The position numbers were made by a program, and so were the translations under genes. Shown piece after piece: positions 2,128 through 47,069 of a DNA stretch of 64,000 nt. Numbering within the stretch: position 1 is the first letter of the stretch; each line of letters opens with the position of its first letter. The notes beneath the pieces were generated by a model, which did not search any database, was not told where the DNA came from, and saw nothing but the letters and a program-made list of their open reading frames with translations. This stretch comes from Chrysoperla carnea (Eukaryota; Arthropoda; Insecta; Neuroptera; Chrysopidae), in assembly GCF_905475395.1 (NCBI RefSeq), contig NC_058339.1, positions 76,846,520 to 76,910,519 of the forward strand, read 5' to 3'.

Positions 2128-2673
2128 AACATATCATAAATTTTTTAATCGATTTTTTGGAATTTTCGAACTTTAGTGCTCTGAAACGCAAAGCCCCAGG
2201 TTTTTACAGGCTGCTGTAAACAATATTGTAAAAGATGCCTGTAAAATTATTTCCCTTCAGATCTCATGTTCCATGATTTTCCAGATACGATCCATGATAC
2301 AGTATGGCTTACATAGCTCGGGGACAAGAAAACATCGATTTTTATGTTTTTTAGCCGTAGATTACGGATTATTTGCTAATCCGGTCAAATTTCCGCGCCT
2401 TCTTTACCGATAGCCAAGTCAAGTACCTATAACTACCATACACATCTGATGAACAGCGTCTGAATTATTCGTCTATTAAATAAAATAACAATTCACTACA
2501 TATAGATCTTTTAGAATGTTGCTAAAACTCTCTATAAGGGAGAGCGACTAGTAAGCGTGAATAACAGGTAATTACGAACAGTAGAATTTTGGGGATTATA
2601 TCATGAAATTATTTCAAAAAATGTTTTGATTATCATCATTTTTATTGCAAAACATAATTTAAGGCCTTTTTTA
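2128..2673. other. Intergenic DNA, no gene seen
   Basis: Mixed composition with no open frame. The motif CAGATCTCATGTTC at about 2258 also occurs in the hairpin at 26243-26362, which hints at an old repeat, but the match is too short to define one. Confidence 0.4.
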
Positions 2674-2913
2674 CCGACCTGGTAGCTCAGTTGGTTAAGG
2701 CGTAACCAATTCCGTCCGCGGTATACCCAGGGTAGCGGGCTCGATTCCCGCCATCGCAACAAAAATTAATTTAATTAATAGTTGTGATGGGTTGGTGTTA
2801 TGCATGGTATAACATGGTATACGCATGAAGGAGGTGCACTCAGCCTCTGAAATTAAGGGGCTGATAAATGAAATGAGTATGTCCTTCGTTTACAGCCAAT
2901 ATAACCTAACCTA
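2674..2913 (+). repeat. tRNA-derived SINE (family 2, copy 1)
   Basis: The head has an A box (GTAGCTCAGTTGGTTAAGGC) and a B box (GGCTCGATTCCCGCC). It is followed by a body with GTGATGGGTTGGTGTTATGC and AAGGGGCTGATAAATGAAAT, and it ends in CAGCCAATATAACCTAACC. The minus-strand copy at 37661-37903 shares head, body and tail. The head carries extra bases between the boxes and cannot form a normal tRNA, so this is a pol III retroposon and not a tRNA gene. Confidence 0.8.
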
Positions 2914-4982
2914 TGCGATAACATACAAAGTTTTTGTCTTTTAATTAAAATAACAATTGAGGTGCGCTGAATTTCAAAACATTTATGAAAAAAATCTAAA
3001 ACCCCCCATTTTCAAAATTATTATTATTTTTGATTTACAAAAAAAGGCCTACAATATTATTTAAAAATATTAATTAAAAAGTTATATAATTAATCAAAAT
3101 TTGATTTTTTTCAATAAGTACAGCACCCATTTTCCCTTATTTGTTCATAATTGTCCCACTCTCCCCTACATACCTAATCGCTGTAACGCTACTAAGAGAT
3201 GCCTTATCGTTACGATAGCATATAAGTATAATAATATATATACATAAATATATAAACGTACCTATTACAAATAATATGTAATTTTCCATATTTCAATTAC
3301 TTTTATGCCTTTGTAATATCATTTGTGTAAGGTAAATTAGGTTTTTACTGTGTGTGTATGTGATTCTGAGACGAAGAAATAATAATTGTATACCGAAGAA
3401 GAAATAATATTTTAGTTAGGTTTCCTATTGTGTTTATCAAATAAGTTCTTTATTATGATTATTAGAAATAATAATATTAACTTATAGAAAATTATAGAAA
3501 ATGTTTCTAATCCATTATTTAAGGTAGTTTTTCATTCCTAATGGTATAAGAACAAGTGACGTCACGAAAAAGTTGGTTTTAGAATTGTTGAATTATGGAT
3601 TCTTTTTCCTTGTTGAAATTAGATAGGGATGAAGTCCGTGTGGTAGCTACCTGAGAAAGGTTGCGTTTCCTGCTTTTATTAGTGCGCATTCCCGAAAAAA
3701 GCTTCGAAAACTGTTGATCTTATAATCATTTTTAAACAATTTTATTTAAGTTACTTTCATTTCACGTTTTTTCTTTGAATTAAAAACAACAAACTTAATC
3801 TCAAATTCGAATAGAAATTGTAATTTCAGTGGAAATAACTCCTATACGGTAAACATTGTTCAATTTTTCTTAACAATCTCCGATTTCTAACTTCACACAT
3901 ATGCTTTCATTCGATCATCAAAATCTCAAATTTTGTACAGTAATTTTTTTGCTTCATTTTCTTTTATTTTTCAATTTTTGCTTGAAAAAACAAAGAATTT
4001 ATGTACATAGATCTGCAGACAATTAAAATATCTGAAAAATAAGACAAAAACCGGTATAGATAAAATGTCATAGAGGAAGAGCCTATGCAGTATTTGGCCA
4101 AATCGCGGCGCCATGGATATCGTAATCGCCCCAACGAGGGTTATAAAACTTGTATTTCCTTAATGGTACATCAATTCCGAAAACTGTAAAGGAACTTTCT
4201 GTCCAAAAGTCCACAAACATAACCCCTACTAAATACTGGTCTTGACTGTCTCAGAAATTTTCCCGAGATTAGAATGAGCCTTTCAAGAAGAATGAGCCTT
4301 TCGAGAAGAATGATCATAATAAAAATTGTTTGATTCGAGTGAAAATGTTTCAAAACGTTAATTTGATCTCGCAATTCAAATTCAAAAAAAAAATAACTAT
4401 TGTTCAAATCTAATAGAAGAAAATGTTAAATTAGAGAGTTATTTCTTTAAAAAAAAACAGCTAGTTCTTTAAAAATTAAAGTTCTTTTTTTGAAAATCGA
4501 ATAGATCCGGCAGAACTTGAATGAAAAGTTATTCATAAATGTCTTATCATTCGATTTTTGAGAAATCTAAAACTACTAGTAAAATTCCTTACCCAATAAT
4601 TCACAAATCCCGAAAAGAACATATAATCCCACAACATGGTAATTGGATCCTTAACTAAATTATTATACGAGTAATCAATATTTATAATTATCATAAAATA
4701 TATGAAATACAGCAGAATTGCCAGACAAAGCTCTTTTTTCATTTTTAATTTCATTTTTAAATATTTCTTTATATTTATTTCATGTTTTTAATTTTAATTT
4801 TGTTTTCATTTTATTAATTTAATTTAAATATTTTTAATAAAGCCATAATTAATTTAATACCAAAAATTTTGATCATATTATACAATGAAAGATGAAATAA
4901 TGTTTCTATGGTTACCGTACAAATTTAAGGCCTTTATAAGATGTTAGTCCAGTGCACTTACGTAAATCGTAGAGGAGTGACC
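2914..4982. other. AT-rich intergenic DNA, no gene seen
   Basis: Open frames here are short, AT-biased and lack coding character. A GC-richer island at about 4080-4140 (around GCGGCGCCATGGATATCG) has no supporting splice sites. A short direct repeat of AGAATGAGCCTTTC lies at about 4272-4300. Confidence 0.5.
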
Positions 4983-18701: not shown

Positions 18702-19141
18702 GAAAGCTACCCGAGAAAAAATTTTATGGCCGTGAGAAATTTGAATGAGAACGATCCGAAGAAAATTTTGAAGTCGGTTTGAAAAAGTTACACAAAAAGT
18801 CATTTTCCGTGTCATATAGGGACTATTACTATAATATATGTGTAGTTTTGATCACCCGAAGCTTGGAAACTACCCGTTAAAAAATTTTTATGGTCGTGAG
18901 AGCTTTTGATCAAAACAATTCTGAAGAACATTTTGAGGGCGGTTTGAAAAAGGTTTACAGAACGCCATTTTCCGAGTCATATAGGTACTATTACTATAGT
19001 ATATGTATAGCTTTGATCGCCCTAAGCTCGAAACTAGGGGTTAAAAAATTTAATGGCCGTGACTGTGAGAGATTTTGATCAGAACGATTTGAAGATCATT
19101 TTGACGATACTTTGAAAAAGTTTCACAGAAAGTCATTTTCC
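18702..19141. repeat. Tandem repeat, 164-bp period, 2.7 copies
   Basis: Units start at 18702 (GAAAGCTACCCG), 18866 (GAAACTACCCG) and 19030 (GAAACTAGGGG), exactly 164 bp apart. Each contains a TGGCCGTGAGA-like phrase, a TTTGAAAAAG phrase and CATTTTCC. The third unit stops at about 19141. The 62-codon open frame at 18890 is inside the array and is not a gene. Confidence 0.85.
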
Positions 19142-25577: not shown

Positions 25578-26112
25578 TTAAGGTAGTCCGGCTGTTTGAG
25601 CAAGTACGGTGAATGTTCATTTTTTTGCGGGAAATGATAGTTCAAAGTCCCTTGATCACAATCAACACAGTTTTGAAATCTTTCGGGGCAAAATTTTGAA
25701 TAATTTCATTTTAAAATTTTGATTTTTAACACAGTTCTTTATCGAAGAACTCACAATAATGTTAATTGTACAAAAATTAATCGGTGATTGAGCTTCAAAA
25801 AAGTTTTCATCATTTTCAAATTTATCACAGATTCTGTTCATGCAAACAAAAAGCATTACCTTACGCGTTCCAAAAAGAATACATAAAAAAACGTTGGATT
25901 TAACGCTCTTACGATTTTTTTAGAGCATTTTATTACATTTACGTCGTACACATTGCCTAGTTTACGATATTTTTAGAACATTTTATTACATTTAAGTCAT
26001 ACAAATTTCCTAATTTACGATATTTTTAGAGCATTTTATTACATACACGCCATACAAATTGCCTAGTTGACTAGTTGACTAGTCACGTGAAGGTCGAACC
26101 ACTTTAATTGAA
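25578..26112. mobile_element. TIR repeat family M3, copy 1, with internal tandem array
   Basis: The left end TTAAGGTAGTCCGGCTGTT mirrors the right end of copy 2 (complement TTTAAAGTAGTTCGGCTGTT). The body (25651-25930) matches 27638-27860, for example AATGTTAATTGTACAAAAAT and TTTATCACAGATTCTGTT. At about 25912-26068 a unit of about 53 bp, built around GAGCATTTTATTACATTTAC, is repeated three times; copy 2 has only one unit. Confidence 0.7.
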
Positions 26113-29596: not shown

Positions 29597-29899
<303 letters not shown>

Positions 29900-30035: not shown

Positions 30036-30151
30036 CAATGCAAATTATAACTCTTCCTGACATCTATTGGTGTATATCGTAGTTAATGAAATACAATGCA
30101 AATTATAACTCTTCCTGACATCTATTGGTGTATATCGTAGTTAATGAAATA
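30036..30151 (+). repeat. 58-bp perfect tandem duplication
   Basis: CAATGCAAATTATAACTCTT through GTATATCGTAGTTAATGAAA is repeated head to tail (30036-30093, 30094-30151). The single-copy version is in the related element at 11051. Confidence 0.9.
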
Positions 30152-30713
30152 AAATACATTACCGGGACATTCAAATTGGTATTTGTGTGGAGACATTTAA
30201 AACGGTCTTCTATTAGTGATAAAATTTGTGTCTTTTTAAGAATACCGAGGAAAGCTCGGTCATCCAGATATTTTAAATTAATTAGTGTTATTGGATAATT
30301 CTCCAATTTTAGGAAAATTCTTTGATCAATTAAAGTTTCTGTTATCAAAAAGACATAGATAATTTGAAAATATTTTTAATTCTTCAAAAAAACTATATTT
30401 CTGGAATTTATCAATTCCAGAAAATAAAAATATCAAATTTTATTTTTGCAAACCTTTATGGAAATAAATTAATTAAACTATTTTAATAGTTTTCACTTAA
30501 ATTTCCTATATTATAATATACAAAATTTTGATTTGATACATAATGCATAAATTATATTTCTTGAAAAATAAAATGTTTATTTAAAAGAATTAGTTAATTA
30601 TATATTGTATTGAAAATATTTTTTCACTTTCCAAATTTTGCCGCCCTAGAAAATTTGCCGCCCTGGGCACTAGCCCCGACCGCCCCTAGTGTAAATCCAC
30701 CACTGAATATCCC

Positions 30714-33955: not shown

Positions 33956-35388
33956 ATGGCTGACGAATTGGATAATTACTACGAAACAATTTTAGAATTA
34001 ACAAAACAAGCTGGAAAGGTAAATATTAAATTTGCTGTTAATCAATAGTGAATACATAAAAGCGTTGAATAGGAAACTGGAAAACTTTAAAAATTTTTGA
34101 ATTTGGTTTTCAGTTAGTTCGAGATCGTTTAACAAATAAAAAAAATGTCGAAGAAAAAGATGCCGATATCGATTTAGTTACCGAAACTGACAAAGAAGTT
34201 GAAGAACTATTAATAAAAAGTTTAGCAAAAAAATATCCTAGTCATAAATTTATTGGCGAAGAAACAGCAGCAAGTGGTAAAAAACAAGAATTAACTGCCG
34301 ATCCAACATGGATTATTGATCCTGTAGATGGAACAATGAATTTTGTTCATGGATTTCCACATTGTTGTATTTGTATTGGATTGTATATAAATTTTGAACC
34401 TGAAATTGGTATTATTTATAATCCATCGTTAGAACAATTATTTACATCTCGTAAGGGTAAAGGGGCTTATTTGAATGGAAAACGGATTTCTGTTTCGGGA
34501 CAAACAGAATTGAACAAAGCATTGATAATGGTTGAAAGTGGAACCAGCCGTGATGAAGAGAAAATGCGTGTTTTTAAGGCGAATCAAGATAAATTAATTC
34601 CATTAATTCATGGATATAGAACTTTAGGTAATTATGATTCAGATTCATTAAGGCTTAGACCTCCTTTCATTCCTGAAATTTCAGTGAAGAGTCTGACTCC
34701 CTAGCTTTAATAGTATTAAAGGATTCCCATAGGGCAGGATATTTTAAGCCAAAAACCAAAATAATTGCAAATTTTATAGAGATGAATTTCTCTTCTGAAG
34801 ATCAAAAATAATTTAGTAGTTGAAGTAAGTGAATCACATTTTAGAGAATTTATTTTGTCCTAGGCTTGAGATCCAATTCAGATCCTTTATTCAGTAATTG
34901 GCCTGGACGACATACTCGAAATTGAGATTTTACAGCTGGCACAATGTTACTTCGATTTCGTATTCTGAGTCAGTTTAAGTAGGTTAAAGCTTAAATAAAA
35001 GCTCTTTTATTATACATTTATTGCTCTAATAATCCAATTGTCACCAAACATTATGAAATCAATTTCAGCTTTGATGTCTTAAATTTTATTATCCTTGAAA
35101 CATTAATCATTTTCAAAATTTTGATTTTGAACAGGTTCAGCTGGTTTGGATATGGCTATGGTGGCTCTAGGATGTGCCGATGCATACTTTGAATTTGGAC
35201 CACATGCATGGGATTTTGCAGCGGGTACGCTTTTAATACGTGAAGCTGGAGGTGTTGTGATTGATCCAAGTGGTGGACCTTTCGATGTACTATCTAGACG
35301 ATGTCTGGCAGCAAGTAGTCAAGAATTAGCTGATGCAATAATTAAAGAAATTGTTCAACTATATCCAAAACCAAGAGATGATGAATAA
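33956..35388 (+). CDS. IMPA1: Inositol-1-monophosphatase (IMPase), three exons, 276 aa
   Basis: The enzyme hydrolyses inositol monophosphates to free inositol in the cytosol, feeding phosphoinositide signalling; it is Mg-dependent and lithium-sensitive in known members. Exons are 33956-34018, 34114-34627 and 35135-35388, joined at GT-AG introns of 95 and 507 nt, and the frame closes at TAA. Length matches the family (human 277 aa). The signature motifs are intact: GEET (E70), [15 protein letters not shown] (D90, D93, T95) and [16 protein letters not shown] (D219), which together supply the three metal sites. The C-terminal [15 protein letters not shown] is also typical. The second intron interrupts a Gly codon after HGYRTL. 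The ATG context (AAATAATGG) is reasonable and gives [11 protein letters not shown] 122-codon frame reading past 34627 into the intron is an artefact. The subfamily (IMPA1 rather than IMPA2) is inferred from length and motifs. Confidence 0.95.
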
Positions 35389-37660: not shown

Positions 37661-37903
37661 GTTAGGTTAGGTTATATTGGCTGTACACGAGCGACACACT
37701 TAGACCATAAGGCCCATTGTGATACCATTATGTGGTTTACTACCTTTCCGCCGATAATTTCATTTATCAACCCCTTAATTATTATCTACCATGCACTACA
37801 CCAACCCATCACAATGGTTGTGACAGCGGGAATCGAACCCGCTACCCTTGGCATACCACAAACGGAATGGGTTACGCTTTAAGCAACTGAGCTACAGCGG
37901 TTT
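37661..37903 (-). repeat. tRNA-derived SINE (family 2, copy 2)
   Basis: On the minus strand: CCGCTGTAGCTCAGTTGC (A box), GGGTTCGATTCCCGC (B box), then GTGATGGGTTGGTGTAGTGC and AAGGGGTTGATAAATGAAAT as in copy 1. The tail reads CTTATGGTCTAAGTGTGTC and ends CAATATAACCTAACC. The tail matches the 3' end of the nearby non-LTR retrotransposon at 39091-39739. Confidence 0.85.
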
Positions 37904-39079
37904 TTGTTTGTTTTTTAACACCTAATCACAAAGAGTATGTGGAAATTTAGGAGATTTCTTTTGTTCTTATACAAATCTAACATCTAACCTCTCATTCCAA
38001 CTCTTTTCCCCAATTCACATTGTTTTCTCTCAAGTCTGTCCAAACAACAGGTAGACTTCAAATTAAAATATTTAATCCCGCATCCAGATGGCTTAGAATT
38101 CCATCCAGATAACCAGACCTAAAATTCATATTCTATTCCAAGCATTGAGAACGTTATCTTCTCTCTGAGCAAAATCTTTCAGAATTTTTTTAAAATTTAC
38201 CTTTTACCTCGAAAGTTCCACGTCAATCTTCACGTTCCAATGTCTGTAAAAACTTGTTGCAAATTTAATATCACCATTTCAATACTTTTTTAGATAAGTT
38301 TTATTTAAAAAAAATATTTTATGATACCAAAATACTTACCCTCTCCAATTTTGGACCACTAACTTTTTTATTTAAAATTATCTTGTGTGGGAGTTACACA
38401 TCTTCATTTAGTGTGAAACACTGAAAGGATTATCAAAAATATGGGAATTAGAAGAATTATTTCTGAGATTTTTGAAAGAAAAAATATTGAAAATAAAATG
38501 CAATCATTATTATTTTTAGCCGAATTTGAGAGAATTGAAACAACATTTTTTTTTTTTTTTTTTTTGGAATAAACAAAAATCTAAAAATAATATTGATTAC
38601 AATCGAAAAGTTTCTATCACGTTTTGATAAAAAAACAAATCAGTGGTAGAGAACCCAAAAAAATAAAAAATTGTATTATAATATGTTTGGTCTTTTACGT
38701 CTTTCAAATACCTTTAGCCTGCAGACGAGAAAGAACCCAGGATCTAGTTCTCAATCGACACTGCAGCATCATGATATTCATATTCCAGTCTGAAACAAAT
38801 GAGTACTGTACAGAAAACAATTCAAAAAACATAACAAAATAAAATAAAAAAGTTAACATTTTGGTTTTTAAAAGTACTTTTTTGATTAACAAAAATATTC
38901 GTAACTCATCATAAAAGAAGTGAGTTTTGATCAACTTGAAATATCGCTTGTAAATCTCAGGAACATTTTTTTTAATTGCGCGCCATTGTATTAAATGAGA
39001 AATGGTGTCATTTACGGGTAAAAAATTCGAGTATACGACATGATAGATCTACAATTTCTATGCAGAATTTATTTCATCC
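37904..39079. other. Intergenic DNA, no gene seen
   Basis: A poly-T run of about 21 lies at 38545-38565. Frames of 72 and 76 codons on opposite strands at 38624-38934 overlap each other and carry no motif. Confidence 0.5.
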
Positions 39080-39090
39080 TAGGAGCCGGA

Positions 39091-39739
39091 GCTCAAAGTT
39101 AGCACTGGACTGCCGAACGTCGTTAACGACGTATGGGTAAATGAATTTTGGGAAATTGTGAAGCCGACGAGCTTGCTAGAAATGACACAATGTTGCCGAA
39201 AACAAGCATCAATAGGCATCCGGGAGTTCTATTTGCGAACTGCAAGTTGCTCCTCAAAGAGGATATCTTAAAAAAGGTCAATCTTAGATGGAGGGAGGAC
39301 GTACTTGTGGTACTACAAGACAGATATGGTCAGAGTACAATCATAAGCGTTCCGGAGATCTTATATCACTTCCAAGGGCCTCTATTACCAAAATTGTTGC
39401 GGCTTCTACAGGACACTGGCTAGGAATCAGGCACGCTGAACGCCTGGGCCTGGCAGTGTATCATGATTATTGCAAGAGCTGTCACAGTGAGGAGGAGGGG
39501 GAAACGATGTCTCATCTTCTCTGTCACTACCCAGCACTTGCCACGAAGAGGTGGACTCAGTCAGCCTTTCTTTGACGACCTGTCCGTTGACGTCCAAGCA
39601 CTCTTGCTGTTCTTAAACACTTCCAAATGATTCATGGAGTAGTGGCCGGGGTTGAGCCAACCCTTTTTTTGGTATAACAACGGACCCTATGGTCTAAATG
39701 TGTCTCTCCCCAGGACAGCTATTTTAATCTAACCTAACT
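39091..39739 (+). mobile_element. 5'-truncated non-LTR retrotransposon (I/R1-type superfamily)
   Basis: Only the 3' end of the element is present. It is flanked by TAGGAGCCGGA (39080-39090) and TAGGAGCCAGA (39740-39750), a target duplication matching at 10 of 11 positions. The coding relic ends with an RNase H C-terminus and a C-terminal zinc-knuckle-like region, followed by a 3' tail (39671-39739) ending TAATCTAACCTAACTT. 5' truncation plus target duplication is the usual mark of target-primed reverse transcription. Confidence 0.85.
39148..39575 (+). pseudogene. ORF2 3'-terminal relic (RNase H end and CxxC...HxxxC knuckle)
   Basis: The first frame starts with GNCEADELARND, the conserved end of the RNase H domain, and reaches NLRWRED. 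After a frameshift at about 39300 the second frame reads TTRQIWSEY, LISLPRASITKIVAASTGHW, HAERLGLAVYHDYCKSC and EEEGETMSHLLCHYPAL. The last part is the typical C-terminal Cys/His motif of elements carrying RNase H. It ends at a stop at 39573-39575. The reverse transcriptase and endonuclease domains are absent. Confidence 0.8.
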
Positions 39740-39750
39740 TAGGAGCCAGA

Positions 39751-41416: not shown

Positions 41417-47069
<5,653 letters not shown>

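Follow-up and report, generated by a model that had tools for sequence, protein, structure and literature searches.

The 64-kb window analysed here (the whole stretch of DNA, contig C3 76846520-76910519 of a 559-Mb assembly in 337 contigs) carries a SINE and a 5'-truncated LINE whose 3' tails resemble each other, which raises the question of whether the SINE is copied by the enzyme of this LINE family. A reading made from the sequence only had proposed the two as a candidate partnership, and its claims are followed here from the window to the genome copies of both families.

The common tail in the window

The elements compared are listed below.

37661..37901 (-): SINE copy SINE_a, with tRNA-like head, body and LINE-like tail; from genome copies and alignment, head boundary approximate
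37661..37727 (-): SINE tail common to the LINE, ending TATAACCTAACCTAAC; 54/69 columns identical
~2673..2914 (+): SINE_b, a second copy of the SINE, diverged and deprived of hairpin I by an internal gap
39091..39739 (+): LINE copy, 5'-truncated and with its frames disrupted, that retains an RNase-H-like end, a CxxC...H...C stretch and the 3'UTR; from translations and genome copies
39640..39642 (+): stop codon TAG of the LINE coding end, consensus ...SSKWFME*; from the 21-copy alignment
39670..39738 (+): LINE 3' tail common to the SINE, which makes up the final ~70 nt of the ~97-nt 3'UTR

The SINE tail (37661-37727, minus strand) and the LINE 3' end (39670-39738, plus strand) align over 69 columns, 54 of them identical, and blastn within the window pairs SINE positions 204-270 with 39670-39738 (69 columns, 78.3%, E 3e-8); besides the query itself, SINE_b was the sole other match in the window better than E 0.16. 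The common tail described by the sequence-only reading is thus confirmed over its whole length, and the earlier count of 38 bases with 6 mismatches is exact (columns 1-38 are identical in 32 of 38). The two elements had also been said to end alike, and both families do close with AACCT repeats. The window tails scored 62; when the LINE end was shuffled 5,000 times with dinucleotides preserved, no score exceeded 34. Among 2,495 window segments compared, the top two scores (56 and 44) overlap SINE_b and the next was 24, and the tail pattern, at up to 3 mismatches, gave 2 matches in the window where 0.04 were expected.

The heads, as had been claimed, are unrelated, with tRNA-like arms in the SINE versus a coding relic in the LINE on a by-eye reading of both. 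A tRNA-derived SINE is expected to have a tRNA-like head with Pol III boxes A and B inside it. By eye, TAGCTCAGTTGG and GGTTCGATTCC are present in many aligned SINE copies, and we take them as candidate A- and B-box strings of Pol III type in the head; the T arm of SINE_a was read as GCGGGTTCGATTCCCGC and TAGCTCAGTTG. Read in this way, the box strings and the T arm suggest a tRNA-like head. ARAGORN called no tRNA in it, and Rfam gave no match at gathering level, with weak T-arm-like matches only.

SINE_b is absent from the sequence-only reading. Its tail scored only 24 in direct comparison with the LINE, and models that include SINE_a recovered the copy with E values of 0.0009 and 1.3e-5. Its gap removes hairpin I, and therefore tail-defective copies exist; the hairpin was possibly lost by later deletion. 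The tail at L060:4642-4687 looks similar, and SINE_a is without two internal stretches that are found in many other copies.

The LINE stop codon is TAG in 20 of the 21 aligned copies (TAA in L080), and because TAG at 39640-39642 sits 27 bases before the shared part, the shared tail makes up approximately the last 70 of the 97 3'UTR bases. The relic contains GNCEADELA and a CxxC...H...C stretch, and these by-eye leads, the first of them RNase-H-like, may hint at an I-group LINE (I, LOA, R1 and kin); Pfam detected neither RNase H nor RT in the window relic. The box [FYCL][AVMLI]DD is a motif of RT. Five LINE copies (L035, L089, L090, L111, L112) lose their similarity to the window relic before the upstream end of that relic is reached, and no such box was seen in the sense frames upstream of them; the window-derived query is itself unable to detect an RT. 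A cytochrome-like identity of the relic was rejected, the Pfam and PDB matches being weak, below Pfam's cut-offs and confined to the CxxC stretch. No protein relatives of the relic were found among viral contigs, bacterial or archaeal contigs or plasmids, as expected for animal DNA.

Other features of the window include an exon-like ORF at 34069-34701 (+) that matches inositol monophosphatase (Pfam PF00459, E 1.2e-52), and, at 42589-43362 (-) and 45658-47007 (-), a protein kinase exon (PF00069, E 7.7e-37) whose upstream neighbour is a charged, RS-rich ORF, the two together resembling a PRP4-type kinase gene. A (TA)n tract of 299 bases lies at 29599-29897, and tandem arrays with periods of 165, 53 and 58 lie at 18702-19141, 25909-26068 and 30036-30155, respectively.

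Genome copies and consensus tails

Both families have many copies in the window's own genome, and both are interspersed. The SINE query gave at least 43 matches on contigs C1-C6, at 70-90% identity with the query's own place set aside (best 40 of 1532 candidates scored), and the element is accordingly short, dispersed and repeated. The last 340 bases of the LINE gave at least 42 matches, 39 at 79-83% identity and the remainder being the query's own place and two weak ones. Scores were computed for the best 40 of 3699 candidates, and in 39 of the 42 matches the alignment extends to query position 334 or beyond and therefore runs through the tail. Since this query contained the shared tail, its 3699 candidates may include SINEs, and since the copies of both families are among the best scorers against the window copies, the sample is not random. 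Twenty of the 42 LINE matches were fetched and aligned together with the window copy (21 rows), and all 20 have a common 3' end; SINE loci were aligned twice, once as 27 loci with the two window copies (29 rows). L036-L048 served in one comparison only.

Several arrangements were observed among the fetched copies. A fragment of the same LINE family lies at L035 4911-5090, with SINE copy L031, its tail cut after GTGTCCCTC, directly downstream. At L112 1691-2201 (reverse strand) and L111 2192-2301, two LINE copies are arranged head to tail within L112, and copies separated by ~100 kb on C6 have a common starting point (YK[VL]FAQFS), which may mark a LINE subfamily with its own 5' end. At L111 19-1689, putative subtilisin-like peptidase coding stretches, perhaps tripeptidyl-peptidase-like, adjoin a LINE insertion.

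The consensus tails are CGGTATCACAACGGACCCTATGGTCTAAGTGTGTCCCACCCCAGGACAGCCACTCTAACCTAACCTAACCTA for the LINE and TGGTATCACAATGGGCTCTATAGCCTAAGTGTGTCCTTCGTGGACAGCCAATATAACCTAACCTAACCTA for the SINE, with 58 of 71 aligned columns identical and 13 different; identity was ~0.95 within a family and ~0.79-0.81 across families. The sequence-only reading had called for just this alignment of genome consensus tails, and the score obtained (76) was far above the maximum of 27 in 10,000 shuffles. Removal of the AACCT repeats left a score of 46, where 10,000 shuffles reached at most 24, and on these two results the consensus tails are regarded as truly alike.

A SINE-type tail pattern (SINE-type hairpin I with a LINE-like first base) gave 3136 genome matches at up to 2 mismatches, and its backward control gave 0. 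In a sample of 200 kb, taken as 20 stretches of which ten adjoin the window and ten lie elsewhere, a covariance model gave 9 tail matches, one of them at just E 0.77. One of the 9 belongs to the window's LINE family and 8 are SINE or SINE-like, including two that resemble the SINE query near the tail only.

Paired stems and insertion marks

Both tails are able to form two hairpins, which are located in the window as follows.

37702..37715 (-): hairpin I of the SINE_a tail, GGGCC-TTAT-GGTCT; from fold and covariation
39682..39695 (+): hairpin I of the LINE tail, GGACC-CTAT-GGTCT; from fold and covariation
39701..39717 (+): hairpin II in the tail of the LINE, whose consensus reads TGTCC-CACCCCA-GGACA; in the SINE, TGTCC-TTCGT-GGACA

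The consensus of hairpin I is GGACC-CTAT-GGTCT in the LINE versus GGGCT-CTAT-AGCCT in the SINE. Stem I has five pairs, and in two of them both partners are exchanged between LINE and SINE (A-U becomes G-C, C-G becomes U-A) around an identical CTAT loop; in hairpin II the stem TGTCC/GGACA is kept and the loop differs. As read off the alignment, the 13 differing consensus columns consist of 4 compensatory changes in stem I, 6 in loop II and 3 elsewhere. GGGCT-CTAT-AGCCT is also the commonest hairpin I in the fetched SINEs and is absent from the 20 LINE copies read, while the more diverged SINE copies SINE_a, L012, L023 and L030 keep the LINE-like C-G at pair 5.

Covariation was measured on two alignments: A4, with 47 rows (44 distinct) made up of 20 genomic LINE copies, the window LINE, SINE_a and 25 genomic SINE copies, and A3, with 26 SINE rows and the window LINE. 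Left out of both were L025 and L031 (tail cut) and SINE_b (without hairpin I). In A4, 93.4% of hairpin cells were paired and 32 were altered on both sides, compared with a shuffle mean of 11.3 and with none of 500 shuffles reaching 32; such cells count sequences and not events, and the two family-level changes may be few events. When the partners were slid, 22-41% of cells were paired and 0-3 were altered on both sides. For hairpin I alone in A3, 95% of cells were paired and 8 were altered on both sides, a number reached by 1 of 500 shuffles. Two of the five covariation measures failed to exceed the A4 shuffles, namely the both-side-changed pairs (2) and the further pair types (11), for which the shuffle counts were 336 and 491 of 500.

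As wholes, the window tails fold no better than shuffles (z 0.57 and -0.15), and the consensus tails are not clearly better folded (z -0.33 and -1.5). Hairpin I alone folds moderately better (z -1.7 and -3.1), with 12 and 6 of 200 shuffles equalling it. Taken with the covariation, the predicted 3' stem-loop is conserved across the SINE and LINE families.

Marks of insertion were found in part of the copies of both families, and the duplication around the window LINE has these two copies.

39080..39090 (+): target-site duplication of the window LINE, left copy TAGGAGCCGGA; 10/11 match the right copy
39740..39750 (+): target-site duplication of the window LINE, right copy TAGGAGCCAGA; 10/11 match the left copy

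Target-site duplications of 10-14 bp beside the head were present in 12 of the 29 SINE rows (L010, L011, L020, L029 and L030 among them), and 5 of 812 passed the same rule in a control in which left and right flanks were mismatched between SINE copies; neither SINE_a nor SINE_b has a clear duplication. The SINE flanks in the alignment are, by eye, not telomeric arrays. The window LINE duplication had shuffle P values of 0.025 and 0.0175, and a perfect TATGTCAATA (10/10 bases, P 0.0105) stands on either side of a second LINE copy, L090/L071. Both duplications mark a 5'-truncated start, and the other two of the four LINE copies tested had no target-site duplication. The LINE features of 5' truncation, a fixed 3' end and target-site duplication were therefore all found in this family.

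Proposed partnership, alternatives and known systems

The proposed partnership is supported by features observed directly in these data, i.e. the shared consensus tail, compensatory pairing across the families, the 3' repeat that both families have and the target-site duplications found in some of the copies examined. We put the probability at about 0.85 that the tRNA-headed SINE owes its last ~70 nt to the 3' terminus of the window's LINE family or of a close ancestor and is copied in trans by the enzyme of that LINE. The LINE enzyme would bind the tail of its own RNA, folded as hairpins I and II, and would then nick the DNA and begin reverse transcription, primed from the AACCT-repeat terminus. 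SINE RNA, presumably made by Pol III and bearing the same folded tail, would be copied by that enzyme as well. Counted against this pairing model are SINE_b, without hairpin I, and the fact that no RT-bearing LINE copy was seen. The same holds for the folding of the whole tails within the shuffle range, the two covariation measures that shuffles equal, the 13 differing columns, and the copies without a clear duplication (SINE_a, SINE_b and two of four LINE copies).

A different, related LINE with a closer tail could mobilise the SINE, the window LINE being a cousin with a homologous tail, and we judge this unlikely. The consensus tails differ at 13 of 71 columns, and therefore a sister LINE outside the sample might be more closely matched to the SINE as its partner; the higher identity within families (~0.95) than across them (~0.79-0.81) and the absence of the commonest SINE hairpin I from the LINE copies read point the same way. 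The hallmark of such a partner would be GGGCT-CTAT-AGCCT plus CTTCGTGGACAGCCAATATAACCT at a LINE 3' end. However, the window LINE coding end followed by a SINE-type tail (loop II) had 0 exact matches in the genome, the LINE-type pattern matched 8 of the 20 fetched LINE copies and the SINE type none, and where SINE-type tails with a LINE-like first base were fetched (20 of 27 exact places among the matches listed), every one has a SINE body upstream. In the 200 kb sample only the window LINE family and SINE-like elements bear the tail, and the LINE-like C-G retained at pair 5 by the diverged SINEs also argues for the window family. Thus a different LINE sharing a longer tail, which the sequence-only reading had named as evidence that would tell against the pair, was found by none of these three routes (coding-end pattern, fetched tails, 200 kb sample). 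Diverged copies, and LINEs whose coding end is a different one, escape exact patterns, which leaves room for a rare or diverged sister LINE.

The opposite direction, with the SINE as source of the LINE tail, or a third element as source of both tails, is very improbable. Similarity alone leaves direction unproven, and SINE or SINE-like tails outnumber LINE tails 8 to 1 in the 200 kb sample; yet only 27 bases separate the LINE stop codon from the tail, that sample revealed no third carrier, and the published pattern is one of SINE families taking LINE tails (58 SINEs in PMC3747384). Chance likeness between AT-rich sequences joined by a common AACCT repeat, to which the simple 5-base repeat of the last ~12 bases lends itself, has a negligible probability and was rejected by the shuffles of window and consensus tails, by the repeat-free score (46 versus at most 24 in 10,000 shuffles) and by the compensatory changes in stem I.

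Returning to copying by the window LINE family, most of the divergence of the SINE tail from the LINE tail (10 of 13 columns) falls at positions that the fold tolerates, in the two compensatory pairs of stem I and in loop II, with the CTAT loop and stem II unaltered. Should the LINE still be copying the SINE, the enzyme might read shape and the CTAT loop and not stem sequence, in an insect LINE seemingly bearing RNase H and with a priming repeat equal to the telomere unit; this is a speculative extension that may well prove wrong. The AACCT priming repeat equals the insect telomere unit TTAGG/CCTAA. CCTAA-type repeats, together with base composition and likeness to published elements, suggest that the DNA comes from an insect. 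Were the suggestion true and copying still under way, the pair would be a natural mutagenesis record of template recognition. As a high-copy insect pair with covarying hairpins it offers a ready test of template recognition by a LINE enzyme, and its insertions could serve as markers for host lineage history.

Viral carriage of the tail was rejected: viral contigs scanned with exact patterns yielded first 0 stretches and later 6, and outside the pattern none of the 6 resembled the SINE or LINE. A planthopper SINE in an iridovirus, which carries a SINE3-1_TC motif (PMC6401454), was also considered, by its description.

By its sequence the pair is of the stringent type, a known kind of SINE/LINE pair, with a shared tail that extends beyond simple repeats and a 3' stem-loop. 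Table 1 of PMC3747384, from 2013, lists 58 SINEs with LINE tails, with one in its Protostomes block, the Gecko SINE of Aedes aegypti with I-74_AAe and MosquI (I clade). By that table, Gecko likewise comes from an insect, is tRNA-headed and has its 3' end in common with a LINE; its partner is of the I clade. The window pair closes in AACCT repeats. Moth pairs have been published besides that list (PMC3272025, PMC8010984), and Gecko with its I-clade partner and HaSE1 with HaRTE1.1 are the nearest known pairs. HaSE1 of Helicoverpa armigera (PMC3272025) is a tRNA-headed insect SINE with a LINE tail, as in the window pair, sharing a 43-bp tail at 82% identity with HaRTE1.1, a LINE with a short 3'UTR; HaRTE1.1 is related to RTE-3-BM and has TGA repeats, whereas the window LINE has RNase-H-like and CxxC...H...C relics and AACCT repeats. 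The 3' end of PxSE5 from Plutella xylostella matches a LINE of the same genome, PxLINE1, as here, but PxSE5 is 5S-rRNA-derived, unlike the tRNA-headed window SINE (PMC8010984).

Among vertebrates, UnaSINE1/2 and UnaL2 of eel and ZfL2-1 and ZfL2-2 of zebrafish are likewise of the stringent type, their 3' stem-loop being needed for retrotransposition (PMC4176376); UnaL2, ZfL2-1 and ZfL2-2 are L2-clade elements whose sequences and repeats are unlike those of the window pair. PMC4176376 also reports that the ZfL2-2 protein binds via its own loop on a foreign stem and not the reverse, with which the compensatory variation of stem I and the kept loop in the window pair may be compared. Neither this pair nor its tail string was found in the literature searched, mostly without subscription papers. 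As a pair it appears to be new, and its mode of working looks like that of known SINE/LINE pairs.
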